A DNA stretch of 23,686 bases, from the IMG/VR virus record IMGVR_UViG_3300012988_000041, positions 1-23,686 of that record; one strand, written 5' to 3'. Positions 724 to 16,301 of the stretch are shown in pieces; the stretch's first letter is position 1; each line of letters opens with the position of its first letter. Origin of the DNA: a virus. Both the position numbers and the translations under genes were made by a program. The notes beneath the pieces were generated by a model. It was given only the letters and a program-made list of their open reading frames with translations, searched no databases and was not told the origin of the DNA.

Positions 724-3657
724 GTGGACGATCTCACGTTCTTCAACACCGTCCTCCCATCGCAAGGCCTGAGGGTCGCCGCGATCCCCCACGAGAACAG
801 GGGTTTTCGACATTCCTGGGGTCCTGACAATGCGTGGTTGGTCAAAAAAACCCATGACCTAGATGCGCTGCCTAACGCCCATGTCTACTACGGGTGCTCG
901 TCCTTCCAGCCCGGACCACATCATCTAGGGAAATATCACCGGCGCCAGGAGTACGTCCTGCTGGTGCGATCGTTCTGGGTTGACCTCGATGTCGGCAAGT
1001 CCTTGCCGAACAAGCCGCCAAAGTACGCCACCCAGCGCGAAGCGGCCGACGCCATCGTGGCCTTCGCCGCGAACACTGGCCTCCCGACCCCCATGCTGGT
1101 GTCGAGCGGGGGCGGGGTCCACGCCTACTGGCCGATGGACCGGGACATGACGGTCGCCGAGTGGAAGCCCCTGGCGCAGGCCCTCAAGCGGGCGCTGACG
1201 GCCGCTGGCGTTCTCTTCGACCCAACCCGCACGGCTGACGAGGCGAGCGTCCTGCGGCCTCCTGGGACGACGAACCGCAAGGGCAAGGATCGCGCCGTGA
1301 CCGTGGTCCTCGACCGAGGCCAGACCAGTTTCGACAACATGGCCGCCAAGCTGGCCCCGATGGTCCAGGCTGCCGCCGTCTCGTCGGCCTCGCCTATCCT
1401 GCCCGGCAAGCTGTCGGCCCAGAACTCGGCGCTCGGCGGGGGCATGGGGCCTGACCCGTCGTCGGCCCTGATGATCGCCGACAACTGCGCCGTCATCGGG
1501 ATGATGCGGGACACGCGTGGCCTCGTCGATCAGCCCACTTGGTATCACTCGCTCGGCGTGCTGGTTCACACGGTCGAGGCCCCTGAAATCTGCCACGAGT
1601 GGTCGAAGGGGGACGACCGCTACACTGCCGCCGAGACCGACGAGAAGCTGGCCCAGGTGGCCAACCACGGCGCGACCACTTGCGCCAAGCTGTCCGAGTA
1701 TCAGTCCGAGGCGTGCGCGGCCTGCCCGTTCTGGGGGAAGATCAAGAGCCCGGTCCAGCTGGGGCGTCCGCGCCAGAGCGACCCGGGCGAGGCCGAGGCC
1801 AAGGAGATCACGTCCAAGCTGTTCGGCGGCGGTGCGACGGCCGGCGGCGACGTCCAGAGCGACGACATGCCGAACGGCTTCGGGCAGCGGGTGGAGCACG
1901 GCCATCCGGTGCTGACCCACTTCGTCCCCGCCGACGGTGACAAGCCCAAGCGCTGGGACGTATTCTGCGAGACGTTCTTCAGGCCGCTGTTCAACTACGA
2001 GGTCGACGGCGCCCACTTCAACGACTGGGTGGCGCTCGGCCGAGACGGCAAAGAGAGGACCTTCACGATGGAGGGCGGAACAATCGGAGCCGGCGGCGCA
2101 CCCCTGGCCAAGGCGCTCGGAGAGCGCGGCATCATGATCATCCCTGGCAAGGGGCGGGTCATGGACAGCTACATGAACCGGTGGATGGCCCACCTCACCC
2201 GCACCACCGCGCTGGTGAAGGCCTACAGCAGCTTCGGCTGGGCTGGCGATGTGTTCGTCACCGGCGGCGTCGTGGTCAACCCGGACGGCGCGGACACGCC
2301 GGCGGTCATGGCTGGCGTGGCCAAGCAGCGCAAGGACGCCGTCACGCTCAAAGGCGATCTGGAGACCTGGGTGCAGCTGGTCGATAAGGCCTACAACGCC
2401 CCCGGCCAGGAAGCCTTCCAGTTCCAGCTGGCGTGCGGGTTCGCCGCGCCCCTGCTCAGCCTGATGGATCAGGTCCGAGGGGTCACGGTCTACGCCCACT
2501 CGGCCGGGTCCGGCGTCGGCAAGTCCACCGTGCAGAAGGTGGCGCTCAGCGCCTGGGGCGACCCGGACATGATGATGCTGGCCCAGAACAAGGTCACGCA
2601 TAACGCGCTGTGGGGCCTGCTCGGGGCCTACAACTCCCTACCCATCGTCTACGACGAGTTGACCAACGTGAAGAACGACGAGGTGTCAGAACTCGTCTTC
2701 TCGATGTCGTCCGGCCGCGCCAAGGAACGGCTGCGCAACACCGGTCAGCTTCAAGACAACAACTCCAACTGGTCGACCATCCTGATGGCCAGCGGGAACA
2801 CCCTGCTGTCGGAGAAGCTGGCCGCCCACCGCGACAACGCCTCGGCCGAGATGAGCCGCCTGTTCGAGTTCACCCTGAACGCCGACCCCCACCTGAGCGT
2901 CGTCGACGCCAACGATCTGTTCCCTCAGTTCGACCGCCATTACGGCCACGCTGGTCTGGCCTTCGCCCGCTACATCGTGGCGAACAAGGCCAAGGTGACG
3001 GACTACCTGCGCAAGGTGCAGAAGCAGGTCGTGGCCGAGTTTCAGATGGAGCAGGTTGACCGGCACTGGTCAGCCCTGTTCGCCTCGGTGCTGGTGGCGC
3101 TCTACGTCTGCCGCGCCCTGCGGCTGGTGGCCTTCGAGGTCGCGCCGATCAAGGCGTGGATGCACGACCGCCTTGCCGAGAACCGGAACCAGAAGACGGC
3201 CCTGGTGCTCAGCGACGAGGAGAAGCTGGACCAGATGCTGCGGGACCTGTGGCCGGACGTGCTGGTCACTGTCGGCCGGGGCACGCGCAACAGCCCGTCC
3301 CAGCCGGTGATCGACAAGCCGCTCAACCGGGGCACCATCATCGGGCGCGGGATCATCGCCGACGCCAGCGGCCCCGAGGAACTGTGGATCAGCCGCCCGT
3401 CCATCCGCGAGTGGGCCGCCAAGCGGTCGGTCAACTACAACGACTTGCTCCAGGGCGCCGTCAACCTGGGCTGGGCGTTCCCGAGGGACGACCACCGGTT
3501 CAACCTCGGGGTCGGCACGGTCGGCCTCGTCACCGGCACGCACGTCATGTGCTGGCGGTTCCGGCCTGACCAGATGCCGGCGGCGGTCGCGACCCTGACC
3601 ACCCCTGGCAGCAACGTGGTGTCGCTGAACCATGGGCTGACGGGCGGCAAGCCCTAA
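724..3657 (+). CDS. primase-helicase replication protein (AEP-type primase domain plus DUF927-like P-loop ATPase)
   Basis: This 977-residue protein probably primes and unwinds phage DNA. The start is GTG 724, with GAGGG at 715-719; no in-frame ATG/GTG/TTG precedes it back to the previous gene. Residues about 60-190 look like an archaeo-eukaryotic primase (RepB-primase/PrimPol type): WVDLDV gives the metal-binding D87/D89, SSGGGVHAYW the H133 motif, and LRPPGTTNRK the third motif (R178, N184, K186). Residues 255-345 resemble a PriCT-like segment with a possible zinc site (C320, C331, C334). Residues about 395-720 form a DUF927-like helicase domain: Walker A HSAGSGVGKST (K600), Walker B LPIVYDEL (D644, E645) and a sensor-like TILMASGN. 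The remaining 250 residues are unassigned. The gene ends in an interlocked stop with the opposing giant virion gene. The two catalytic domains are clear; polymerase activity and helicase polarity are not known. Confidence 0.9.
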   Translation: MDDLTFFNTVLPSQGLRVAAIPHENRGFRHSWGPDNAWLVKKTHDLDALPNAHVYYGCSSFQPGPHHLGKYHRRQEYVLLVRSFWVDLDVGKSLPNKPPKYATQREAADAIVAFAANTGLPTPMLVSSGGGVHAYWPMDRDMTVAEWKPLAQALKRALTAAGVLFDPTRTADEASVLRPPGTTNRKGKDRAVTVVLDRGQTSFDNMAAKLAPMVQAAAVSSASPILPGKLSAQNSALGGGMGPDPSSALMIADNCAVIGMMRDTRGLVDQPTWYHSLGVLVHTVEAPEICHEWSKGDDRYTAAETDEKLAQVANHGATTCAKLSEYQSEACAACPFWGKIKSPVQLGRPRQSDPGEAEAKEITSKLFGGGATAGGDVQSDDMPNGFGQRVEHGHPVLTHFVPADGDKPKRWDVFCETFFRPLFNYEVDGAHFNDWVALGRDGKERTFTMEGGTIGAGGAPLAKALGERGIMIIPGKGRVMDSYMNRWMAHLTRTTALVKAYSSFGWAGDVFVTGGVVVNPDGADTPAVMAGVAKQRKDAVTLKGDLETWVQLVDKAYNAPGQEAFQFQLACGFAAPLLSLMDQVRGVTVYAHSAGSGVGKSTVQKVALSAWGDPDMMMLAQNKVTHNALWGLLGAYNSLPIVYDELTNVKNDEVSELVFSMSSGRAKERLRNTGQLQDNNSNWSTILMASGNTLLSEKLAAHRDNASAEMSRLFEFTLNADPHLSVVDANDLFPQFDRHYGHAGLAFARYIVANKAKVTDYLRKVQKQVVAEFQMEQVDRHWSALFASVLVALYVCRALRLVAFEVAPIKAWMHDRLAENRNQKTALVLSDEEKLDQMLRDLWPDVLVTVGRGTRNSPSQPVIDKPLNRGTIIGRGIIADASGPEELWISRPSIREWAAKRSVNYNDLLQGAVNLGWAFPRDDHRFNLGVGTVGLVTGTHVMCWRFRPDQMPAAVATLTTPGSNVVSLNHGLTGGKP

Positions 3658-6600
3658 GGCGTGGCGTCCAATGCGTCCTGCGGAGTGTCGGCGTAGAGCA
3701 TCTGCAAGGCCAGGGTCCGGTTGGCCGCCGTGGTCGGCACGCCGCCGATCACGTTCCGCTCCCGCTTCGCCTGGGCGCTCGGGGCCTTGAGCAGGGTCGA
3801 CAGCGGCTGGCGCTTGATCCCGTCCCGGGCGCGGGCGTCTTGGACGGCCTCGAATTCCTCGCGTACCGCACGGACCTTGGCGGGGTCCTTGCTCTCCACG
3901 GCCTTGATGTACTTGCTCTTCAGCTTGGAGGTCTGGGCGTCGTAATACTCGCCGATGGCGTAGTCCTTCGACCGGCGCTCGGCTTGGTTGGTCAGCGAGC
4001 GCGGCCGGACACCCATCGCGGTGTAGAAGCCGTCCAGACCTGAGATGTCCTCGGGCGGCATGAGCACGTCGCCCTTCTTGTCCGTCAGGCCTTCGGTCTC
4101 CAGGCGGAAGGCCTTGGCGCTGTTGGCGAACACGCCGGGCATCAGGCTCTCGGCCACGCGGCCCCAGTCGCCCTTCTCGGCGAAGCCCCAGCCGTCGATG
4201 GCCTTGGTCATCATGCCGCCGGACGGGCCCAACATCAGCTGGCCCATCGTCTCGTAGAACTTCTCCTTGTTGGTCACGGCCGCCGGCAGATCGCTGTAGG
4301 GCGCCAGGGAGAGGATGTTGCCCATGCCCAGGCGGTCGCTGGTGTCCATGCTCAGCAGGGCGTAGGGCGCACCCTTGTAGAGCAGGTCGGCCAGCCAATC
4401 GCGCTTCTCGCCTTCGCCGCCAGCGCCCAGGGCTTCCTTCAGGTCCTCCTGCCAGTTGTTCCAGTCCTTGTCGTCGTCATCGTCGAGCATGTTCAACAGC
4501 GCGCCGATGACCGGGCCCAGCAGCGCCGCGCCCGGCTGGCCGACGATCCCACCGATGGCCGCCATGTGGGCGCTGAGGAAGGCGAGGGCCTTGAAGCCCT
4601 GCACCTTCTCCTCACGTGTCGCGCCGGCGAAGGCCATGCGGAACTGCCGCGCCACCAGCTGGCCCATGATCAGCTGGAACTTGCGGAACTGAAGGGCGAC
4701 CTTGCCGAAGTTCCCGGCCACGTGGAAAGGCGTCGGGGAGTTGATGCCTGAGTAGTCTCCGTGCGCCTCGTAGATCATCTGCGAGGCGATCTCGCGCGCC
4801 TCGGTCTCGGTCTTGCCGTCAGCGATGGCCAGCTTGTAGGTCGCGATGCCGGTGACGACGCGGTTCGCCACCTCGACGCGCTGCGGCATCATGCGCAGAA
4901 ACGCGTCCACCTTGTTCCACGTCTGCGGCAGGACGCCGTCGCCGTTCACTTCCCAGTGGCCGTTCTCAGCGGCGAAGCCGGCGTCGAGGCGGCCGCGCTT
5001 GGCGAGATATTCCAACACGCCGTGCAGTTCCTTGGGGGCGTTCTTGAAGTCGATCCGCTCGTTCAGCTTGGTGCCCTTGGTCATCTTGCCGAACATCGAG
5101 TAGGCGGCCCAGGTCTCCCGGTTCGCAGCCCCGTAGCCGTACTTCGACGCCATGAGCGGCACGGCGATCAGCGAGTGCTGGGTGGCGTTCTGGAGGTAGT
5201 AGAAGGGCGACGTCAGCAGGGTCCAGATCGACACCGCGCGCACCGCGCGATCGATCACGCGGCTGGGCTTGGCGCCCACCGTCGAGGAGTAGCGGAACAT
5301 CACCTCGTTGACGCCGCGCTGGGCGTCCTGGCGCTTGTCGTAGTCGGCGTTCGAGGTCTCGTCCTTCATGGCGTAGATCGCGCTGGTGATCTGCGGCCCG
5401 TTGGAGATCGAGGCGATGTAGTTGGCCATGGCCGAGCCACGCGTGACGAAGGCGTGCATCATGTCCACGACCTCGCCGGTGACGGGGTCCCTGAGCGGCA
5501 CGTTCTTCCGGCCCAGTTCAGCCTTGCGGGCCGAAGCCTCCGACAGCGAGGACAGGTAGAGGTCCGTGACCAGACGGTCCATCCGCTGGGCCGCGCTCTT
5601 CCCCAGCTTGCCCTCGCCGGGCTTCGCCTTGGTGGCGGCGTTGATGGCCTTCTTGACCTGATCGAAGGCCAGGAACAGTTCCTCGCCGACGATGGCTCCG
5701 TCCTCAACCTTGCCGCGCTCGAACTGGTAGACGTTTTTCGGCCCGAACTTGGTGGCGACGTGGGAGGCCAGCGCCTCGGCCTCGGCCAAGGTGTCACGGA
5801 AGTCGACGTAGTGGTGCTCAGGATCGTCGGCCATCTTGTCGAGGGCCTTCTGATCCTTGGCCTTCTCGGCCGCCTTGTAGGTGTCGCTCTTGCCGACCAC
5901 CGCCCAGGCGCCCTCGCGGGCGATGGGGGTGTAGGGCGTACCGGCCTGGGTGTCGAAGACCCGCGAGAAGTTCTTCAGCGCCCGCTCCCAGTCGTCTTTG
6001 ATGCGCTTCGTCTGCTCCTCGGTCGTGGCCACGTCCAGCAGCGGCTTGTACTCGGCGTCGATGGTCTTCACGACCTCACGGTATAGCTTCTGACGGCCCT
6101 CGTGGTTGAAGAGGAAGACGTCCCTGATGACGTCGGCAGCCTTCTTGGACTGCGCCTCAATGGCCTTGAACATCTTGGCCATCTCAGGATCGATCGTCAC
6201 TCCACCTTCGACGTAGCCAGGGTCGTAGCCCCACTTCCCGCTGGTGGTGCTCGCCAGCAGGTAGTCGGAGATCGAGCCCGGCTTGGTCCCCTTCAGCTTC
6301 GCCGGCAGGGACTGGTAGACGGACTTGATGTTGGCCAGCCGCTCTTCAAACTCGCGGGCTTCGGCGTGGCCGTTGGAGACCAGATCGATCAACTTGCGCG
6401 CCGACGGGACCACCGCGCCCAGGCGGTTGGCGATGTCCTCGGTGCCGGACAACCACATCTGCATCTTCTTCAGCAGTTCGCGGCCGGACACGTCGACGGC
6501 CACCTTCGCCTTGTTGACGGCGGTGCGGCGGGCGTAGGCCTCGGGGGTCTTCTTCTCAGCCTTCACGCGCTGGAACTTGTCGCCGAACGCTGCGCGATCC

Positions 6601-9600
6601 AGCTTCTCTCCCCGGTCGTAGGCGGTGACGCGTGCGGCCGTGTCGAAGTCGGGCGTGTCGAGGGCGCCGGCCTTGAGCACCGACCACCCTGCATCAGCGA
6701 TCTCGGACAGCGCGCTGATCGGCGGCTTCACACCGAACAGGCTGCGGATCATCCCCATGATCTTGGCCCAGATCGACGTCGGGTTCGCCGGGGCGATCTT
6801 GTTGCCCTTGATGTCGTGGGTGCGCAGGAAGTTCTGGAGGGCGTCGTCGGTGAACACGCGGACGAACAGTTCGTCAGGGTCGGCGGCCGCCTCGATGGCC
6901 CAGATGTTCTCGTCGATCTCCTTCAGCAGGTTGGGGTGCTTGTCCTGCATCATCGTGTGGAAGTCGAACCACAGATTGCGGAAGGCCTCGTTGAACTTGT
7001 CACCCGACTGCCGCTTGGCCCCGATCAGATCGAGGTTTGTGGGGACCCCTCCGATGTCGAGGGTGTTGTAGCGGCCAGCGACCCACGAGTGCAGGGCCTC
7101 GTGGAGGATGGTCTCCTCGGACACGCCCGACGGCCCGTTGGTGGTCTTGTAGAGCAGCACGTTGCCGGTCTTGGTGTTGGTGACGCCGAGCGTGTTCAGG
7201 CTGGCGTTGCCCTCGTCTGAGACTTGGATCGTCGTCCCTTTGGCGAAGCCGCCCAGCAGCATCAGCCGCGCCAGTTCGCGATACTGAGGGTTCTTCGTGG
7301 TCTTCATGACGGCGCGGACGACGTTGTCCAGCTTGCCGGTCTTGAGCGCTTCGTCGACAACGGCCACGCCGTCGACATTGGTGCGGGCCTGGGCTTGGAA
7401 GGCCGCGCTGCCCATAGCGCCGGCGGCCAGTCCGGCCAGCCCTCGACGGGTGACGGCTTGTTGCTTGGTCTCGCCGCTCAGCAGCGCCAGTTCGGCGGCG
7501 ATGTTGTCGGTCGGCACGCGCTGCACGACGCCGCCGCGCACGGTCTCGGCCGTCACCTTGTCGGTCAGGGACTTGGCCTGGAGGGGCGTAATCTCGCCGG
7601 CGTTGCGCGCCTTGGCGATGTCCTTCATCAGGGCCTGACGCTCTTCGTCCACGTCCTCGTCGGTCTGGGCCTTCGCTTCGGCCTCAGCCTTCTTGGCGCG
7701 CAGCTTCATCAGCGCATCGGCAGACGCCGGCTTGGTTGGGGCCTTAGGCGTGGGGGCCTTGGCCTTCTCGACGGGCTTAGGGGCAGGCTTCGGCGCGGCC
7801 TTCGCCGCTGGCGCTGGGGCCTTCTTGGCGGGCGGGGCTACGGGCTCAGGCTTCTTCGCCTCGACCGCCTTGCGCGCGGCGACAGGCAGGCCGGCACGCT
7901 TCTGAGCGGCGCGCTCCTGGGTCTCCCGCTGGCGCTCTACGCTGGCGGACTTGAGCTTACGACGCGTCTCACGGGGACCGGCCGGACGCGCTGGCGGCGT
8001 GCTGGCTTCGGCCTCGCGGGCTTGCTGCTCGCGCTCGGCGGCGGCGAATTTCTTACCTCGCTCGAAATTGTAGAGGGTCGCGCCCTTGGTGGCGGTCGGG
8101 GTCTCATGGTCCTGGCCGAGCTCGGCCTTCATCCCCTCGCGGAACCACTTGGCCTGCACGGGGCCAAGGCTCTGGGTGGCGATGTGAGCGTCTGCACGGG
8201 CCGACGTGCTCGCAGCCGCTCGCTCTTGCGGAGTGGGAGCGGGCGCGGGCGTCTCGGTAGGCTTGGTCTGCGCTGTCGGCTCGGTGGGCTGTACGGGCTC
8301 AGGAGCGGGCGCTGGGCGCTCTCTGACGCCCAGGCTGGTGTCCTGTGCCGGAAGGGCCGCTTGCTGGGCCTGAGCCTCAGCCAAGGCCTCGCGGCGACGG
8401 AAGCTCTCTTCCATCCGCAGGGTGCGTTCTTCGGACGGGCCCAGAGCTTCGGGCAGGCCCATGTCGCGCAGGGTCTCGGCGAAGTCGGCGCGAGGGTTGG
8501 CGCTCTTGGAGGCGATCACCCGGGCCAGCACCTTGCCGCGCTCGGCCGCCTCGGCGGCGGCGTCGACGCGGGGCTGCACCTGGGCGAGTTGCGCCTGCTC
8601 CATCTGCGAACGGGCCGACAGGTCGTTGGCCCTAGCCTGCGCGCCTTCAGTGGCCAACTGCTCGCCCAGCTGCGCCAGTTCCGGGTTGACCTGAGGGCCA
8701 GCCGGCAGACGGTCTGCGCGCAGCGGGGGAGCCTCAGTAACGATCTCTGGGCCACGTGCCTTGGCCAGCCGCTCGGCCGTCTCGACGGCGGCCATGATGG
8801 TGCGTTCGCGCGACGCCAGCCTGCGCTGCTGATCGGACACATCCTCAGGCAGCAGCCGGTCCTCGATCTCGGCGAGGCTGTCGAAGTCTGCTTGCAGGCG
8901 TTCGCGCTCGCGGCCGATAGCCGCCGCAGCCTGCTCGCCTCCCTTGGCGATTTCCGGCGCCAGACTGTCAGCGGTCGTTTCGTCGACGTCGTCGCCAGCG
9001 AGCTCATCGATGCGGGCGCGCAGTTCGTCAGCCGTGAAGCTGACCTCATCGCCGGCGCGGCCGGGGGTCCCTGCGGCCGGACCTTCCGTGATCTCGTAGT
9101 CGCCGCGACGCGCCATGGCTGCGGCGAACTTCTGGACGTACTCCTCGCCCGACGTGCCCAGCACATCCCGGGCCTTGCTTCCGGTGCGGCGGGGACGGCC
9201 GGTGAACCACGCGCTCGCGGCGTCCTCGGCGTTGCCGAACCGCTCGACCAGACCACCGAACACGTGGTCGAACACGCGGTCCTGCGCCTCGGGATCAGCC
9301 AGGAATTCCTGAGGCGCCATCTCACGGCCCAGGGCTTCACGCGTCCACTGCGGCAGGTTGCGGCCCATCATCTGGTACTTGCCGTAGGCCCTGTCGCCTC
9401 GCTTCGTCACCGGGCCGACAGCCTGATAGTCGCCGCTGCCCCGGCTCTCGATGTCCGCGATGGCCGGGCCGTAGACTTGGCTCGGACGTCCCTTCCGCTG
9501 ATCGGTCAGGCGCAGATGTTCGACCGGGGCCTCGCCACGGATCGGCCCATCGACCGGGGCCGTCAGGCGCTTAGGCTCTGGGGCCGGCAGCGCCAGCATG

Positions 9601-10550
9601 TCGGTCGACGCGCCGGGGGTTTCATCCACAGGCCGGGCGCGGGTCTCATCTTCGGGCAGGGTCTGCGGCTTGGCGCGCAGATGCTCGTTGCCAAACGTCT
9701 GCTCGGCCGCGCCGGCCACCGTACCGCCGACTAGGCCCTTGATGCCGGACATGCCGTAGCGTTCGAGCGAGCCTTCGCCCCCGATCTCGCCACGCGTTCC
9801 GTAGTCCTCAACGACGTCCTGGCCTGTCTCGACGCCGCCTTCGACGAGCCCCGCCACGACCGGACGCTTGACGATGCCGAGGCCGCTCTTCTTCAGGCCG
9901 CCGGTGGCGAACCTACGAACCACGCCGGCCTCGGGACCGATCAGGTCCAGGGCGGCAGAGCCGCTGGCCGCCAGGGCGGCGCGACCACGGTTCTCAGTCC
10001 CCGCCTCGTCCTGACCAGACCGCTGTCCGCCGTAGCTCTGTATCCAGCTGGGCGCGAACGCCCCGATGCCGGCGCCAATAGCCGCGCCCGGGATTGCGCC
10101 GATCCCTTCGAACGGTGCACCGGCCATCGCGCCGAGCCGCGCGCCGGCCATAGCGCCAGCGCCGCTGATCCCTAGCTGCGGAGCCAGTTCAGCCAGGGTC
10201 TCCTTGACGAACTGAACCGGGTGCCGGCCGATATCGCCCAGGGTCATGACATCGGCAGGGTTATCGGCGACCACCTTCTCGCCGTAGGCCTGGATGCCCT
10301 CAGTCGGCAGGCCGACGTCCTGCGCAGCGCGGGCGAAGGACGCGAGCGCGCCGCCAGCCCCACGCTTGACGCCCTGGATGATGGTCGAGGGCTTGTCTTT
10401 AGCGGCCTCTTCCTCAGCGCCGGCGGTCCTGCGGCGACCAGACAGATCGGGCAGCACGTAGGGCGCAGCGGTCGTGGTGCCAGCGGGCGCCCACGATCCT
10501 CCGAAGTCGGCGGGGTCCGGCAGATTGCTGCGGCGGGGTTCGCGCGCCAT
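3654..10550 (-). CDS. giant internal virion (ejection) protein with lytic transglycosylase, HExxH peptidase and polyvalent-protein-like regions
   Basis: This 2298-residue protein is the last of three consecutive ejection-protein genes, the position of T7 gp16, and is much longer than gp16 (about 1300 aa). ATG 10550 directly abuts the TAA of the upstream gene. Visible parts: residues 128-170 form a Gly/Ala-rich hydrophobic stretch. Residues 358-470 are lytic-transglycosylase-like, with the probable catalytic E368 in ADIESRGSG and the later YGKYQMMGRNL. Residues 505-730 are charged helical, and 740-950 low-complexity and Lys/Ala/Pro-rich. Residues 1034-1056 look like a twin-arginine signal. Residues 1100-1250 contain HEALH (1150-1154) and a downstream DPDELF, as in zincin metallopeptidases. 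Residues 1640-2250 are a long helical region with FYYLQN and a hydrophobic helix at 2001-2021, resembling LPD38-type regions of phage polyvalent proteins. It probably opens the peptidoglycan and enters the host with the DNA. The LPD38 assignment is tentative. Confidence 0.88.
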   Translation of the reverse strand: MAREPRRSNLPDPADFGGSWAPAGTTTAAPYVLPDLSGRRRTAGAEEEAAKDKPSTIIQGVKRGAGGALASFARAAQDVGLPTEGIQAYGEKVVADNPADVMTLGDIGRHPVQFVKETLAELAPQLGISGAGAMAGARLGAMAGAPFEGIGAIPGAAIGAGIGAFAPSWIQSYGGQRSGQDEAGTENRGRAALAASGSAALDLIGPEAGVVRRFATGGLKKSGLGIVKRPVVAGLVEGGVETGQDVVEDYGTRGEIGGEGSLERYGMSGIKGLVGGTVAGAAEQTFGNEHLRAKPQTLPEDETRARPVDETPGASTDMLALPAPEPKRLTAPVDGPIRGEAPVEHLRLTDQRKGRPSQVYGPAIADIESRGSGDYQAVGPVTKRGDRAYGKYQMMGRNLPQWTREALGREMAPQEFLADPEAQDRVFDHVFGGLVERFGNAEDAASAWFTGRPRRTGSKARDVLGTSGEEYVQKFAAAMARRGDYEITEGPAAGTPGRAGDEVSFTADELRARIDELAGDDVDETTADSLAPEIAKGGEQAAAAIGRERERLQADFDSLAEIEDRLLPEDVSDQQRRLASRERTIMAAVETAERLAKARGPEIVTEAPPLRADRLPAGPQVNPELAQLGEQLATEGAQARANDLSARSQMEQAQLAQVQPRVDAAAEAAERGKVLARVIASKSANPRADFAETLRDMGLPEALGPSEERTLRMEESFRRREALAEAQAQQAALPAQDTSLGVRERPAPAPEPVQPTEPTAQTKPTETPAPAPTPQERAAASTSARADAHIATQSLGPVQAKWFREGMKAELGQDHETPTATKGATLYNFERGKKFAAAEREQQAREAEASTPPARPAGPRETRRKLKSASVERQRETQERAAQKRAGLPVAARKAVEAKKPEPVAPPAKKAPAPAAKAAPKPAPKPVEKAKAPTPKAPTKPASADALMKLRAKKAEAEAKAQTDEDVDEERQALMKDIAKARNAGEITPLQAKSLTDKVTAETVRGGVVQRVPTDNIAAELALLSGETKQQAVTRRGLAGLAAGAMGSAAFQAQARTNVDGVAVVDEALKTGKLDNVVRAVMKTTKNPQYRELARLMLLGGFAKGTTIQVSDEGNASLNTLGVTNTKTGNVLLYKTTNGPSGVSEETILHEALHSWVAGRYNTLDIGGVPTNLDLIGAKRQSGDKFNEAFRNLWFDFHTMMQDKHPNLLKEIDENIWAIEAAADPDELFVRVFTDDALQNFLRTHDIKGNKIAPANPTSIWAKIMGMIRSLFGVKPPISALSEIADAGWSVLKAGALDTPDFDTAARVTAYDRGEKLDRAAFGDKFQRVKAEKKTPEAYARRTAVNKAKVAVDVSGRELLKKMQMWLSGTEDIANRLGAVVPSARKLIDLVSNGHAEAREFEERLANIKSVYQSLPAKLKGTKPGSISDYLLASTTSGKWGYDPGYVEGGVTIDPEMAKMFKAIEAQSKKAADVIRDVFLFNHEGRQKLYREVVKTIDAEYKPLLDVATTEEQTKRIKDDWERALKNFSRVFDTQAGTPYTPIAREGAWAVVGKSDTYKAAEKAKDQKALDKMADDPEHHYVDFRDTLAEAEALASHVATKFGPKNVYQFERGKVEDGAIVGEELFLAFDQVKKAINAATKAKPGEGKLGKSAAQRMDRLVTDLYLSSLSEASARKAELGRKNVPLRDPVTGEVVDMMHAFVTRGSAMANYIASISNGPQITSAIYAMKDETSNADYDKRQDAQRGVNEVMFRYSSTVGAKPSRVIDRAVRAVSIWTLLTSPFYYLQNATQHSLIAVPLMASKYGYGAANRETWAAYSMFGKMTKGTKLNERIDFKNAPKELHGVLEYLAKRGRLDAGFAAENGHWEVNGDGVLPQTWNKVDAFLRMMPQRVEVANRVVTGIATYKLAIADGKTETEAREIASQMIYEAHGDYSGINSPTPFHVAGNFGKVALQFRKFQLIMGQLVARQFRMAFAGATREEKVQGFKALAFLSAHMAAIGGIVGQPGAALLGPVIGALLNMLDDDDDKDWNNWQEDLKEALGAGGEGEKRDWLADLLYKGAPYALLSMDTSDRLGMGNILSLAPYSDLPAAVTNKEKFYETMGQLMLGPSGGMMTKAIDGWGFAEKGDWGRVAESLMPGVFANSAKAFRLETEGLTDKKGDVLMPPEDISGLDGFYTAMGVRPRSLTNQAERRSKDYAIGEYYDAQTSKLKSKYIKAVESKDPAKVRAVREEFEAVQDARARDGIKRQPLSTLLKAPSAQAKRERNVIGGVPTTAANRTLALQMLYADTPQDALDATP

Positions 10551-12371
10551 TTACTTGCTCGCTGGTTGAAGCCGCCGCAGTTGCCGTTCGAACTCTTCTA
10601 CACGAGAACGCGTCGCGCCCATCTGGATGGACTTCAGTGCCGGCGTCTGGCCTTTGTTGCGGCGGGCGTCGAACACGCGAAGCGCCTCTTTGTCCTCGTT
10701 GTACTGCTTGATGCGTTTGGGATCGTCAGTGAACAGCTTGGCGGTCGCGGACTGACGGCCAGCCTCGGTGGCGGGCCGCTGCACAGGCGCCCTCGGCGCG
10801 GCAGGCGCGGCGGTAGGCTTCGCCGCCGGGGCGGTCCCCGGCTTCGCGGCAGGCGCGGCGGCCCCCGCTGTACCCGGCTTGACCTTCCTGGCGTCCTGCA
10901 CCCTGCGGATAGCGGTGCCGGCGGCGACCGGATCGGGGTAGGCGATCTGGGCGTAACCGTAGGCCTGACCCTGCGTCGGGAACATCGCACCGACGTTGCC
11001 CTGGTTGTCGAGCACGCCGAACGTTTTGCCGCCGCCGGGGGCGTTCACAATCTGCACGAGGCCATGCTTCACCAGCGGGTTGCCTTCCCACTCGTCGCGC
11101 TCAGCCTGCTGGTGTTGCAGGCGGTCGTTCACCTGGGTCTTGATCTGGGTCAGGGTCTCGGGATCGCTGGCCGTTTCGGTGGTGATGAAACCCTTCGGGC
11201 TCAGGATCGCGTTCTCTTCCGCCCACGACGTGTAGCCGACAGGGTCGAGCAGCGACGCCCCGGGGGCTGAGAACTTCTTCACGCTGTCGCGAAACTGGGT
11301 CTCGCGGTCAGCCTCGACCCGCTCGCCTGACGTCTTCTGCCTGATCTGCGCGGTCTGTGCTTCAGCCAGTCCCCGAGTGGACGCATAGCCAGCGATCTTG
11401 GCTTGGCTCTCCATCATCTTGGTGAACTCTTCGCGGCTGTCGGCGATCAGCTTCTCGCGGACCTCAGGCCGCAGAAGCTCGCCGGCGATATTCGCCTTCA
11501 GTTCACCCTTCGGCACGTTGCGCAGGACCGTGACCTCGGTGTCCTTGCCGTTCGCGTCCTTCTCGGTGACGGACATGCTCCACGTGCCGTTGCTGTTCTC
11601 AGTGATCTTGGTCGGAACGCCGGTGGTCTGCGACGCCATGTAGCTGAGATTGGCGGGGCTGGCGGTGTCGAACGCCCGGAGCTTCCGATCGATCACCAAG
11701 TCGCCGTACTGCTTGTAGTGCTCGTTGGCCTTGTCGGGCTGACGCGCCTCAGCGTAGGCCTTGGCCAGATACAGCTGCCGATCGATTTCCGTGGCCGGAC
11801 GCATCTTCTGACCGCCGCTGCCTGCAACGGGCACAGTGTCGGGGGTCGCGGGCTCGGGCCCGGCCGCAGGAGCAGCGGCCGGGGCGGGCGGCGCGCTCGC
11901 GGCAGCCCCCATGAGACCCGGCATGTTCACCTGATCCAGGGGACGCGTCGCTGGCGTCTCGGCGGCAGGGGTTGCGGCAGGCGCGGCGGCCGGGGCGGCC
12001 AAGCCGAGACCGACCTGGGGCGCAGGCGTCGTCAGGCCAGCGCCGTCGGAGGTCTGACGGATGCTCCGCCTGGAGAACAGCCCGGCCAGCTTGCCGACCA
12101 GTCCGGCTTCCTGAGGATCGGCGGCGACCGGGCGCGCAGCGGTGCGTGCGGCGTAGATGTCCTCGACGCTGCCGATGGGCTGGTCGATCAACGGTGCGCC
12201 GCCGACCGCCCACGCGAGCTTGCCCTCGCGCTCGTCGGCCTCTCGGGCGCGCGTGGCTGCCTCCTCGGCGGCCCTGGCTTGTGCGCGCCGCGCCCGGTTG
12301 GCCGTGTCGCTCTCGATGCCTTTGGCTACGCCGCCGGCGAAGTCGCCAAGGCCTTCCAGAAACCCAGCCAT
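10551..12371 (-). CDS. internal virion (ejection) protein, middle gene of the trio
   Basis: This 606-residue protein lies between a gp14-like and a gp16-like gene, the place of T7 gp15. Its ATG at 12371 shares a base with the TGA of the preceding gene (TGATG), and its TAA directly touches the ATG of the giant gene, so the three are probably made in fixed ratio. The N-terminus (MAGFLEGLGDFAGGVAKGIE) is amphipathic and is followed by an Ala/Arg/Glu-rich helix. Two Ala/Pro-rich linkers (about 112-190 and 500-545) separate helical segments. Residues 200-330 look folded and contain DKANEHYKQYGDLVIDRKLR. No enzymatic motif was recognised. Assignment rests on gene order, composition and length, not on a conserved motif. 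A role in building the DNA-translocating channel is inferred from the T7 gp14/15/16 analogy. Confidence 0.75.
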   Translation of the reverse strand: MAGFLEGLGDFAGGVAKGIESDTANRARRAQARAAEEAATRAREADEREGKLAWAVGGAPLIDQPIGSVEDIYAARTAARPVAADPQEAGLVGKLAGLFSRRSIRQTSDGAGLTTPAPQVGLGLAAPAAAPAATPAAETPATRPLDQVNMPGLMGAAASAPPAPAAAPAAGPEPATPDTVPVAGSGGQKMRPATEIDRQLYLAKAYAEARQPDKANEHYKQYGDLVIDRKLRAFDTASPANLSYMASQTTGVPTKITENSNGTWSMSVTEKDANGKDTEVTVLRNVPKGELKANIAGELLRPEVREKLIADSREEFTKMMESQAKIAGYASTRGLAEAQTAQIRQKTSGERVEADRETQFRDSVKKFSAPGASLLDPVGYTSWAEENAILSPKGFITTETASDPETLTQIKTQVNDRLQHQQAERDEWEGNPLVKHGLVQIVNAPGGGKTFGVLDNQGNVGAMFPTQGQAYGYAQIAYPDPVAAGTAIRRVQDARKVKPGTAGAAAPAAKPGTAPAAKPTAAPAAPRAPVQRPATEAGRQSATAKLFTDDPKRIKQYNEDKEALRVFDARRNKGQTPALKSIQMGATRSRVEEFERQLRRLQPASK

Positions 12372-13411
12372 CAGATCGGGACCTTGCTGTAGTCGACCAT
12401 CTTGTACCCGTCAGGGCCCACCATGACCGCGTCAGGGAACAGGAGCTCAACCTCGTCGGCCATGTAGCCGAACCGCAGCGGCGCGCTGGCCGGCTCCCAG
12501 ATGTAGCGGAACGCCCACAGCACGACGCCGTGCGCCATGGTGGCGAGCCGGTTGGCGTCCTTCTTGAGGCGGCGGTCGGACTTGAAGAGCGAGGTGTTGC
12601 CGAGCGCGGCGCTGCCCATCTGCCCGGCCAGCATCCCGATCCCGGCCAGGGGGCTGGACGAGGTGTTCATCGAGGTGTTGCCGAGCGAAGTGTAGGCGTC
12701 GAGGTTGGCGCCGTAGCCCTTCTGGGCGATGCCGTAGCCGGTGTTGACGTTGGCTGCGCCGCCGGGGGTCGTGCCGGCCGCCGCCGCTGCGCCGCTCAGG
12801 CCCGCGCCGGACGCGCCGCCCGCAGCACCGCCGGCCTGGAGGATGCTGGCGAAGCCGCCGCGCCCGAAGTTGGCGGCGTCGGAGGTCAGCTGCATCCCCA
12901 GCGCCTTGGCGCCCTCGCGCGCCCGGGTCGCCGCGCCCGCTTCGGTGGCGGTGTTCATGACCGACGCGTCGCTGCGCGCCGCCAGGGCCGCCGGGCTGGT
13001 GGGGTCGATACCGAGGCTGCCCAGCTTGCGAGCCAGGGTCCCGGCCTGGGACTGGGCCGCCGTGCGCACGTCGCCAATCGCGCTGCGCGCCTGCTTCTCC
13101 TGCTCCTCGGGGGCCGAATACTCGTCGACCATCTTGTAGTAGCGGTCTTCGGCCGGCACCCCGAGGGTGCGATAGCGTTCGTCCGCCAGCTTGGCTTGGT
13201 CGTAGGTCAGATCGAACAGCTGACCCTGCCGCTCGATGTTGGTGTCGCTCTCCTTGATGAGTTGCGACATCGCCGGGGCGACGTACTTGTCAAAGTAGTC
13301 GCGGTTCCAGGCTTCCGACCGCTCGGCCAGGGCGACGTTGGCCTTCGCGGCCTCGCCGATCTGGGGGTCGTACTTATTTTTGGAGGCTTTGCAGTACCAC
13401 CGGTCACGCAT
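12371..13411 (-). CDS. internal virion protein (gp14-like) with C-terminal S74-like chaperone domain
   Basis: This is a 346-residue protein. ATG 13411 has the site CAGGAG eight bases upstream and overlaps the GNAT gene by 8 nt. The N-terminal half (residues 1-185) is helical, with WNRDYFDKYVAPAM, DERYRTLGVPAEDRYYKMV and ARKLGSLGIDPTSPA. This is the pattern of podoviral internal core/ejection proteins. Residues 186-275 are Gly/Ala-rich and flexible. The last 70 residues match the intramolecular chaperone (peptidase S74-like) family: SDRRLKKD (S278 and K283, the spacing of the Ser-Lys pair in the family), FGYMADEVELLFPDA, and GYKMVDYSKV at the very end. The family usually helps fibre trimers fold and may be cut off autocatalytically. 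Here it is a short form lacking the helix that usually follows VDYS. Whether it still cleaves is unknown. Confidence 0.82.
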   Translation of the reverse strand: MRDRWYCKASKNKYDPQIGEAAKANVALAERSEAWNRDYFDKYVAPAMSQLIKESDTNIERQGQLFDLTYDQAKLADERYRTLGVPAEDRYYKMVDEYSAPEEQEKQARSAIGDVRTAAQSQAGTLARKLGSLGIDPTSPAALAARSDASVMNTATEAGAATRAREGAKALGMQLTSDAANFGRGGFASILQAGGAAGGASGAGLSGAAAAAGTTPGGAANVNTGYGIAQKGYGANLDAYTSLGNTSMNTSSSPLAGIGMLAGQMGSAALGNTSLFKSDRRLKKDANRLATMAHGVVLWAFRYIWEPASAPLRFGYMADEVELLFPDAVMVGPDGYKMVDYSKVPI

Positions 13412-13922
13412 AGCGACACTCCTGTCGGAACATTCGATAGATCAACACGTCGCCGCCGTCACGCGCGGCGTGCGTAAGCCGGGCCTCGGGCGTGAACCCG
13501 AGGTTGGTGACGAAGCGGCGGCTGCGGTAGTTGCTGTCCTCGACCCAGGCCGAGACGCGGGCGACACCCATGGTCACGAAGGGGAATTTGAACGCCTCGT
13601 GGAGGATGTGCCGCGTGCTCCACTTCCCGGTGCCGTCCGAGGCCACGTGCATGAACACGTTCTGGCCGTTGTACTGGTCGTAGCCGATGGCTGCGATGAC
13701 CTTGTCGTCCCGCAGCTGCACGATCCCCTTCCAGTCCTCGGTCCGGCCCGGGTCGTAGAAGGTGCTTATGAAGGCGTAGGCGGCGTCAGCGTCGGAGACG
13801 ACGGCGTATCGGACACGTCCGTCGGGCCGGGCACGTGATTTGCGGCGGCGACGAGACCGTTCAGTCGGTGGTTCTCCGCCTGAAGCGCCTGAAGCTGCGC
13901 TCCCATTTCGATCACCTGACAC
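13404..13922 (-). CDS. GNAT-family N-acetyltransferase-like protein
   Basis: Residues from about 36 on read as a GNAT fold: VRYAVVSDADAAYAF as the first strand and helix, GIVQLRDDKVIAAIGYD as the central strands, GTGKWSTRHILHEAF near the acetyl-CoA loop, and EDSNYRSRRFVTNLGFTPEA as the typical C-terminal motif. The classical Q/RxxGxG/A loop is degenerate. Such proteins sit just before the ejection-protein genes in several podoviruses; their substrate is unknown. The start is uncertain. GTG 13922 is the only ATG/GTG/TTG in frame before the domain, but it overlaps the preceding gene by 157 nt, and residues 1-35 (Ser/Gly, then RSRRRRKSRAR) look like shadow translation. The gene may begin at an unusual codon or be reached by frameshifting. 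It overlaps the next gene by 8 nt. Confidence 0.72.
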   Translation of the reverse strand: MSGDRNGSAASGASGGEPPTERSRRRRKSRARPDGRVRYAVVSDADAAYAFISTFYDPGRTEDWKGIVQLRDDKVIAAIGYDQYNGQNVFMHVASDGTGKWSTRHILHEAFKFPFVTMGVARVSAWVEDSNYRSRRFVTNLGFTPEARLTHAARDGGDVLIYRMFRQECRYA

Positions 13923-14046: not shown

Positions 14047-14502
14047 TCACGGACGGGCGATTTCCACCCACCATGCCCGGTCGAAGCCGGCGGTGACGAT
14101 GGTGCGGTTCTGCGCCGGGATAGACAAGGGTGTCTGTGCGCCGATCAGGGCTCCGGTCTTGACGTTGACCAGTGACGTTTGACCGGTGGCCATGATGCTG
14201 ACCGGGCCAAGGTAGTTCAGGACCTCAACCGTCTGGCCGTAGGCGAACCCGTCCTGGGTGGGCGAGGGGAACGTCAGCTGGATGCCGGCTTGGTTCAGCT
14301 GAATGATGCCGCCGGCGTCGCCTGGGTTGATCGAGCCGGACATGTTGATCAACCGATAGGGCCGCCCGCCCGGGTTGGTGATCGCCTCCCCGAAGGTCTC
14401 CTCCAGATTGACCATGACGATCAGCTGGCGACGGACGGCTTGCAGGAACTCGTAGAGCCCCGGGTCCTGCATCTTGGGGACGTCGGGGATGCGCCGCGTC
14501 AT
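14047..14502 (-). CDS. hypothetical virion-region protein, 151 aa
   Basis: The start is ATG 14502, which overlaps the TGA of the nozzle gene as ATGA. A longer frame reaching 14736 exists, but its extra 78 residues (Arg/Pro/His-rich) are a shadow of the nozzle gene. The N-terminal 45 residues are helical (DPGLYEFLQAVRRQLIVMVN). The remainder is a run of short beta strands (RLINMSGSINPGDAGGIIQL, VEVLNYLGPVSIMA, ending in FDRAWWVEIARP), resembling small structural or fibre-head proteins. No family was recognised. Being coupled to the nozzle gene suggests a tail-tip or tail-assembly role, which is inference. Confidence 0.72.
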   Translation of the reverse strand: MTRRIPDVPKMQDPGLYEFLQAVRRQLIVMVNLEETFGEAITNPGGRPYRLINMSGSINPGDAGGIIQLNQAGIQLTFPSPTQDGFAYGQTVEVLNYLGPVSIMATGQTSLVNVKTGALIGAQTPLSIPAQNRTIVTAGFDRAWWVEIARP

Positions 14503-16301
14503 GTGGCGTGGAGCTCTTCGATGGTCGTGGCGAAGTGGACGCTGCGGACGTTGACGTTGCCGAGGATGGAGAACTCCATCTGCCGCGCCTTGAACGCCGG
14601 GATGCGGATGGGGTCGAGCGAGAACGGCCGCAGGTTGGCGCGCAGTTCGCCGCCGTCCCCGTAGATGACGATCTGCAAGGTCCGGGCCGAGGTCGGCCGG
14701 GGCAGGTTGTCGAGGATCGAGCCGTTGATCTCCCACTCGTTGAGCGGGGCGCCGTTGATCGCGCCCATCAGGTCGCCGGGATAGTGGGCCGCGTTCCAGG
14801 CCGTGACCGCCGCGCGCTCGGCCTCGTAGGCGCTGTTGTCCAGCAGCTGGCTGTAGTCGGCGTCGACACGCAGCAGGCTGAAGGTCCCGGCCACCTCATT
14901 GAAGAACCTCTTGGACTTCCACTCGTAGCTGAGCGGCGTCGCCTCGTCGGCGTCCATTTGGTAGACCTTGTGGTCGGTGTCGTGGACGTAGAACATGAAC
15001 CCGTTGCGGGCGTCGACGTGCAGCGCGATGGCCGGCAGCTGGACGAACGACAGCGCCGGCGGGTCGGTGCGACTGAGCACCAGGGCGCGCGAGGGCGTCT
15101 CGTTGGGGAACACCCCGAAGTACCGCCCCTGGAGTACGGCCGCCTTCATGGTCGCCGGGATCAGCGGACGCCACTCGTCGGCGGTGAACAGGTTGGAGGT
15201 CGATAGGCCGCGCTCGCTGGGCGACAGCGTCACCAGACCGTTAGGGCTGGCGTAGACCACGCCGTCCTCGTCCGAGGCGATGGTGGCCTTGGCCACGCAC
15301 GGCTCTTGGAGGGGGATTTTCTCGGTGTACATCTCGCCGGGCACGCCGCCGTGGATGAAGAACGGGGTGGTCCCGGTCATCACAGCGACCGAGGTCCCGA
15401 CCACGCCCAGGCCGACGATCTTCATGACCGGCAGGGTGATGGCGTAGGCCAGCGGCCACGCGTGCGGCTGATGCGGCTCGGAGAAGTAGACGGTGTTGCC
15501 GACGAACCCGGCCAGCGAGCCGCCCGGCAGGGCGACCAGACCGGCGAGGTTAACCGGCGGCGGCAGCCAGCCGATGGTGTCGATCGGTTCGCCCAGCTGG
15601 GCGACGGTCAGACTGTCGTCGTAGAAGGTGGTGGCCACTGGGATTTCGGCGACGAACTGGTAGCTGACCGTGGCTGTGCCGACGACCGTCCGATAGATAC
15701 GGCGGTGGGTGACGTTCTCGCCGGCGGTGGGCCCGTAGAAGTCGGACACCCGCACGGTCGAGCCGACCGGCGGCACGCTGAGCAAGGCGGACGCGGGCGA
15801 CGGCGCGCTCTCCGAGCGGATGGCGCCGAACACCGAGATGTTGGTGTAGACGTAGGCGCGGCTCTCAGGCGTGCCGGTGCCGACCACCGTCAGGGTGGTG
15901 ATGGGCGGAGCTCCAGGCGGCGTGATCCCCATCGGCTGGGACGCAGACGGGTAGGGCTCAGCCCCGCCCGTCGCCATAGCCCAGTTAGTCTTCTTCGGCG
16001 GCCCGTCACCGGTGTAGTAGATGCGGCTCTCGCCGGCGGCGTCAGCCGTCGGGCTGACCGCGACGTCCACCTCGTTCATCCACAGCAGGAAGGCCGAGGC
16101 CCCCGAGTTGTGGAAGAGCCTGTAGAGGGTCTGGTAGGCGGCAGGCGGCGGCGTGTAGGCAAGCAGCGGACCGCGCCAGTACCTGAGCTCTTTAGAGTAG
16201 AGCTTAACGTTCAGAGCGGTCTGAGCGAACTGGTCCCCCAACAGGGTGGGGGACAGTCGCGGGATCAGCCCGTCGAACCCAAGGAGCCTGAGCGCGGTCA
16301 C
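14499..16301 (-). CDS. tail nozzle / tail tubular protein B-like
   Basis: This 600-residue, beta-rich protein starts at GTG 16301, four bases after the TAA of the upstream gene, with AAGAAG/TAAGG just before it. It opens with a segment typical of podoviral nozzle proteins (FAQTALNVKLYSKELRYWRG). Repeated strand-rich blocks follow that look like a beta-propeller or platform: YTNISVFGAIRSESAPSP, LVALPGGSLAGFVGNTVYFS, FFIHGGVPGEMYTEKIP, VVYASPNGLVTLSPSERG and HDTDHKVYQMDADEATPLSY. Length and order match the proteins that close the tail end (T7 gp12, P22 gp10). It would form the distal end of the short tail, through which DNA leaves. The nozzle assignment is by family resemblance; the exact fold was not tested. 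Confidence 0.82.
   Translation of the reverse strand: MTALRLLGFDGLIPRLSPTLLGDQFAQTALNVKLYSKELRYWRGPLLAYTPPPAAYQTLYRLFHNSGASAFLLWMNEVDVAVSPTADAAGESRIYYTGDGPPKKTNWAMATGGAEPYPSASQPMGITPPGAPPITTLTVVGTGTPESRAYVYTNISVFGAIRSESAPSPASALLSVPPVGSTVRVSDFYGPTAGENVTHRRIYRTVVGTATVSYQFVAEIPVATTFYDDSLTVAQLGEPIDTIGWLPPPVNLAGLVALPGGSLAGFVGNTVYFSEPHQPHAWPLAYAITLPVMKIVGLGVVGTSVAVMTGTTPFFIHGGVPGEMYTEKIPLQEPCVAKATIASDEDGVVYASPNGLVTLSPSERGLSTSNLFTADEWRPLIPATMKAAVLQGRYFGVFPNETPSRALVLSRTDPPALSFVQLPAIALHVDARNGFMFYVHDTDHKVYQMDADEATPLSYEWKSKRFFNEVAGTFSLLRVDADYSQLLDNSAYEAERAAVTAWNAAHYPGDLMGAINGAPLNEWEINGSILDNLPRPTSARTLQIVIYGDGGELRANLRPFSLDPIRIPAFKARQMEFSILGNVNVRSVHFATTIEELHAT

Follow-up and report, generated by a model that had tools for sequence, protein, structure and literature searches.

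The window analysed here, a virus record of 23,686 bases from a soil podovirus, gives 29% of its length to a single gene, which raises the question of what kind of protein is encoded there. A sequence-only reading had described it as one gene at the gp16 position whose product seems to merge an ejection protein with a multi-effector polyvalent protein and may act on host targets after entry. The gene (3654-10550, minus strand) is an ATG-started open reading frame with no internal stops, and it encodes 2298 residues, none of which is cysteine. It lies immediately downstream of genes for gp15-like and gp14-like proteins, which is the gp16 position as defined by T7 gp16, and both the integrity of the gene and its placement are thus confirmed.

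The neighbouring genes are those of a short-tailed virion. A DUF927 primase-helicase gene (724-3657, plus strand) is convergent with the giant gene and overlaps it by 4 bases. Upstream of the giant gene there follow, in order, a cysteine-free gp15-like ejection protein (10551-12371, minus strand), which has no Pfam match and is assigned by position and cysteine content; a gp14-like virion protein with a Peptidase_S74 chaperone end (12371-13411, minus strand), which resembles gp64 of Burkholderia phage JC1 (E 2e-9); a GNAT acetyltransferase (13404-13922, minus strand; phrog_4470; JC1 gp63, E 6e-21) that is part of the conserved block; a tail nozzle or head-closure protein (14499-16301, minus strand; 8jov_A, E 2.9e-70; JC1 gp61, E 7e-60); and the tail and head genes with the major capsid protein. 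JC1, BcepIL02 and LASTA have the same gene block, and the order around the giant gene is kept in the relatives that we collected and in the cultured Rhizobium phage RHph_TM29. In TM29, LASTA, JC1 and BcepIL02, too, a GNAT gene separates the nozzle gene from the gp14-like gene. The TM29 homologue of the window primase, EVB31_075 (L163:2228-5311), is labelled 'putative integrase', which is probably a misannotation.

Domains of the giant protein

The central part of the protein contains the HExxH peptidase-like domain that had been noticed in the sequence. Residues 1056-1300 (6651-7385, minus strand) are, as judged by an HExxH motif and a distal Glu, a zincin-type metallopeptidase domain of what we term clade A, for which proteolysis is predicted. 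The motif, HEALH (residues 1150-1154; 7089-7103, minus strand), would supply two zinc ligands and the catalytic Glu, and Glu1227 (6870-6872, minus strand), within an invariant DE, is the candidate third ligand. HEALH is the only HExxH in the protein, and an HEx2-3H motif arises in just 3% of protein shuffles. Both HEALH and Glu1227 are invariant in seven aligned homologues. Pfam returned nothing useful for this region; the assignment is upheld by a profile of the region, which matches phiKMV gp37 (L182:4567-8580) with an E-value of 2e-16. The zincin-like domain of gp37 carries HEAVH at residue 423, and both this motif and a distal Glu align with those of the window protein. The same profile matches PDB chain 9sfn_G (E 4e-14), an 'internal virion protein' of 1337 residues. 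As phiKMV gp37 is annotated as an internal virion protein and is given a length of 1337 residues in a review, 9sfn_G is probably gp37 or a near-identical protein, judging from length and motif. The C1 domain of the N4 virion RNA polymerase (vRNAP) is also matched, with an E-value of 1e-6 in hhalign and only marginally in hmmsearch. An AlphaFold2 model of the domain (pLDDT 71) places the motif on a helix and shows a small three-stranded sheet with helices at its flanks; a PDB fold search with this model gave no significant match, with several zincins among the top ones.

The C-terminus is polyvalent-protein-like, as had been proposed. A helical segment at approximately residues 1363-1490 (6081-6464, minus strand) is LPD39-like, with Pfam LPD39 (PF18858) recognised in the two aligned relatives G018 and G020. 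It is followed by a tail-700, or PLxRFG, domain (residues 1578-2268; 3747-5819, minus strand) that matches NCBIfam NF032893 with an E-value of 1.6e-73 and a score of 248 bits against a curated cut-off of 100, covering nearly the whole profile. The PHROG match of the C-terminus is 'DarB-like antirestriction'. Residues 1330-2298, which we call the chassis, are common to every complete giant in our set, while the middle region is not. A search of 84,980 bacterial and archaeal genomes returned nothing close to the chassis, and relatives of the capsid there are just 45-54% identical.

A model of the 969-residue chassis is of moderate quality (pLDDT 72, pTM 0.59). Its structural matches in BFVD include LPD-domain proteins and helicase/methylase giants. 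Below these come two Roseobacter phage proteins named 'internal virion protein D', from CRP-4 and CRP-5 (E 6e-7 and 7.5e-6, with TM-scores of just 0.3-0.4), and the internal core protein of Ralstonia phage RSB3 (E 7.5e-5). The matches to internal virion protein D and the RSB3 core protein point, though only modestly, to a common ancestry of gp16-type proteins and the polyvalent chassis. A PDB fold search with the chassis model found no significant match, comparison of the chassis with the N4 C2 domain found no homology, and T7 gp16 did not match the chassis profile. A PDB sequence search of the chassis returned only capsid proteins, at chance level.

The N-terminal half is less securely assigned. 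Residues 1-340 (9531-10550, minus strand) are rich in Gly and Ala and contain a glycine-zipper-like stretch, with a match to DUF6861 (PF21724) at residues 107-170 (E 2.8e-7); glycine-zipper matches are present in the N-termini of relatives, and this part of the protein is probably membrane-active. Residues 357-482 (9105-9482, minus strand) had been read as a lytic-transglycosylase-like (SLT) domain. What holds is a real, conserved domain whose candidate catalytic residue, Glu368, is invariant in nine homologues and whose motifs, GKYQ and AAxxWFxG (AASAWFTG in the window), are conserved. The domain is about 42-57% identical to domains of rhizobial tape-measure and Streptomyces minor tail proteins. 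The slot that it occupies holds a Pfam SLT domain in three relatives (G008, G012 and G027) and Phage_lysozyme in another (G011). The identity as a transglycosylase is less firm: the window protein has no Pfam SLT match at E<1, and hhalign against true SLTs gives E-values of 0.0018-0.027 with low probability. Since direct profile proof is weak, we term the domain SLT-like, on the basis of motif and slot only. A PDB sequence search of this domain returned weak matches to a mycoplasma adhesin, which we judged to be chance. A search for a wall enzyme among the gp15-like proteins encoded next to the giants yielded one only in G026 and in TM29 (EVB31_084). A helical linker rich in Ala, Pro and Lys (residues 501-1000; 7551-9050, minus strand) lies between the SLT-like domain and the zincin.

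Cargo exchange on a conserved chassis

To place the protein among its kin, we collected 18 related IMG/VR records by capsid and giant protein, in which G009/G010 and G015/G016 look like near-duplicate pairs. Identity to the nearest relative, G001, reaches 66% in the chassis and 59% over residues 1-856. G001 is without the window-type zincin and has instead two HExxH domains of other clades, one adjoining LPD23. G002 and G009, by comparison, have a more distant chassis (46-48%), yet their zincin is of the window type, at 46-51% identity. The chassis tree joins the window with G001 (support 100/99), and a single clade of the three carriers of window-type zincin is rejected on that tree (AU p 4.9e-7). 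At least three zincin clades occur ahead of the chassis: A, with ETILHEALH; B, with HExxHAL..EAVAE; and C, with HEVQH..GEVEAR. The third zinc ligand is intact in most zincins of these clades. The clades were grouped post hoc by motif and the relatives are not independent, and we therefore give preference to the tree test and residue conservation over motif chance levels. An HEx2-3H motif, mostly just before the chassis, is present in all 19 IMG/VR giants (the window included, and counting the two near-duplicate pairs) and in eight of nine cultured ones. The sole exception in the set is the tail-700 giant of Atu_ph08 (4877 residues; L170:3467-18100), which has no HExxH, so the zincin is not required in every giant.

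Other cargo varies as well, and includes ART-PolyVal in G020, FtsK_gamma in G021, InPase in TM29 and, in G007, an SSGCIN motif resembling that of L,D-transpeptidases. Residues 635-755 of PDB 9b41_L, a phage portal protein (gp19), match the InPase region of TM29 EVB31_083 (L163:7460-14446). The G007 giant (2867 residues; L136) has one cysteine, residue 1495, which lies inside its SSGCIN motif and is apparently catalytic. Taken at the level of sequence, the pattern across these relatives is one of protease and wall-enzyme modules swapped between phages on a conserved chassis.

Cysteine is nearly absent from the giants, with two in 44,017 residues of the 19 IMG/VR proteins (the window included) and two in 33,790 residues of the nine cultured ones; together this makes four in 77,807 residues, against 1.46% in their convergent primases. 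T7 gp15 and gp16, N4 gp50-52, phiKMV gp35-37 and JC1 gp64, gp67, gp68 and gp69 contain none. For the window giant alone, the absence has a P of 0.003. The other genes of the window contain 0.26% cysteine, indicating that depletion is partly general to virion proteins here, and the cysteine evidence is for that reason moderate for the window protein alone and strong across the family. In N4-like vRNAPs, cysteine absence has been tied to transit through the tail and periplasm (PMC3715699, PMC3915230), and its near-absence in the giants supports a similar passage. A long, cysteine-free chain may offer a simple screen for ejected proteins. Mass spectrometry of JC1 virions identified 51 unique peptides of the giant gp69 (PMC9144972), and gp69 is homologous to gp30 of Ochrobactrum phage POI1126 over about 2,000 residues. 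A tail-700 match was expected in BcepIL02 gp70, a close relative of gp69, and none was found; the JC1 virion evidence is consequently indirect for the window giant.

The domain content also bears on how unusual the protein is. In 2017, Iyer et al. described phage-type polyvalent proteins, encoded beside virion genes, in which MPTase, lysozyme and LPD domains occur together (PMC5512222), with the N4 C1 zincin among the founding MPTase examples (PMC5512222). With several unrelated domains, MPTase- and LPD-type parts and virion-gene neighbours, the window giant is by its predicted domains a phage-type polyvalent protein, resembling the others in its long multi-domain chain, zincin MPTase, wall enzyme, LPD-type domain and virion-gene neighbourhood. 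It differs from the large members in having fewer enzymatic domains, an LPD39-like plus tail-700 end and a zincin for which there is no Pfam model. The DarB-like/PLxRFG podovirus giants (POI1126 gp30 and those of Klebsiella phage LASTA, Erwinia phage PEp14 and Pseudomonas phage Skulduggery) are like it in their C-terminal tail-700, their zincin, LPD39, tail-700 order and their near-lack of cysteine, and the window-type gene block is demonstrated in LASTA. They are longer, at about 3,700-4,900 residues against 2298. In POI1126 gp30 the order is explicit, with HExxH (3776) followed by LPD39 and tail-700, and its cargo comprises Hydrolase_2, M15 peptidase, InPase, methylase, SNF2, LPD3 and LPD39. 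The window giant has no Pfam match to a methylase or SNF2 helicase and shares only its C-terminus with the DarB-like proteins.

Closer in size is TM29 EVB31_083 (2328 residues), from a phage whose capsid is 44% identical to that of the window. It likewise has no cysteine, a zincin motif (HEATH), tail-700 and the same neighbours; it differs in carrying InPase, with the wall enzyme in the adjoining EVB31_084. The phiKMV gp37 protein shares a homologous zincin (HEAVH and distal Glu), freedom from cysteine and the gp16 position, but is only 1337 residues long and is unmatched by the chassis profile. N4 gp50, the vRNAP, which is ejected (PMC12633501), shares a zincin (C1) and freedom from cysteine, but carries an RNA polymerase and is without tail-700. 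Thus, the multi-domain virion-type protein that had been proposed for the gp16 position does have zincin, LPD39-like and tail-700 parts, while the suggestion that merging ejection and polyvalent proteins is unusual does not stand: the merger was already described (PMC5512222), zincins occur in N4 gp50 and phiKMV gp37, and the DarB-like giants are richer in cargo.

A possible role in genome entry

The window protein is likely to be an ejection protein of the phage-type polyvalent class. It would be packaged in the head with the gp14-like and gp15-like proteins, docked in the virion core by its LPD39-like/tail-700 chassis, and ejected through the short tail before the DNA, probably unfolded. Its N-terminal part would then enter the envelope and the SLT-like domain open the peptidoglycan, with the chassis ending up at the inner membrane or past it, like T7 gp16-C. 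The zincin, in the slot before the chassis, may cut the giant or its partners in the ejectosome, either during entry or afterwards, and such a cut would separate wall enzyme, linker and chassis. Iyer et al. suggested that polyvalent zincins process their own chains (PMC5512222), and we favour self-processing both for that reason and because the giants keep a protease even as its clade changes; even so, we give self-cutting during or after entry about an even chance. N4 vRNAP is packaged uncut. To our knowledge, no cut has been demonstrated in any tail-700 giant.

The zincin could instead act as an injected effector, with host proteins of defence or the envelope as its substrates in place of a phage protein. 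Effector-like cargo is found nearby in kin (ART-PolyVal in G020, FtsK_gamma in G021 and InPase in TM29), POI1126 carries methylase and SNF2, and exchange of zincin clades would suit an arms race. However, nearly every giant has a protease of one clade or another, whereas the other effectors vary, which fits a general task better, and we regard the effector role as unlikely. The domain might also be a non-catalytic structural leftover that aids packaging or folding, given that the HExxH-bearing N4 vRNAP is packaged uncut and needs its C-terminal region for encapsidation. Against this, the zinc ligands and the catalytic Glu are conserved in clades A (phiKMV gp37 included), B and C, and if the domain were not catalytic it would be hard to see why every clade that replaces another keeps HExxH; we find the structural role rather improbable. 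That the best matches of the SLT-like domain are in rhizobial tape-measure proteins would agree with a long-tailed phage in which the whole frame encodes a tape-measure or minor tail protein, but the order of gp14-like, gp15-like and nozzle genes, the nozzle match to 8jov_A, the same block in JC1, BcepIL02 and LASTA, and the tail-700 chassis leave that reading very little room.

More broadly, and more tentatively than for self-cutting, it is possible that many podoviruses have a zincin as a regular component of their ejection machinery, with clades interchanging in a fixed slot before a chassis of gp16-type fold, and that ejectosome proteolysis, in the form of self-cutting that sets the cytoplasmic part free, is a general step of entry. 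The class to which the window giant belongs, as a compact member, is a known one; what the present comparison adds is the exchange of cargo over a conserved chassis in 18 relatives. The shared domains connect three literatures, those on polyvalent proteins, on DarB-like podovirus giants and on the ejection proteins of T7, phiKMV and N4, and the comparison makes it testable why many ejected podovirus proteins bear an intact zincin.
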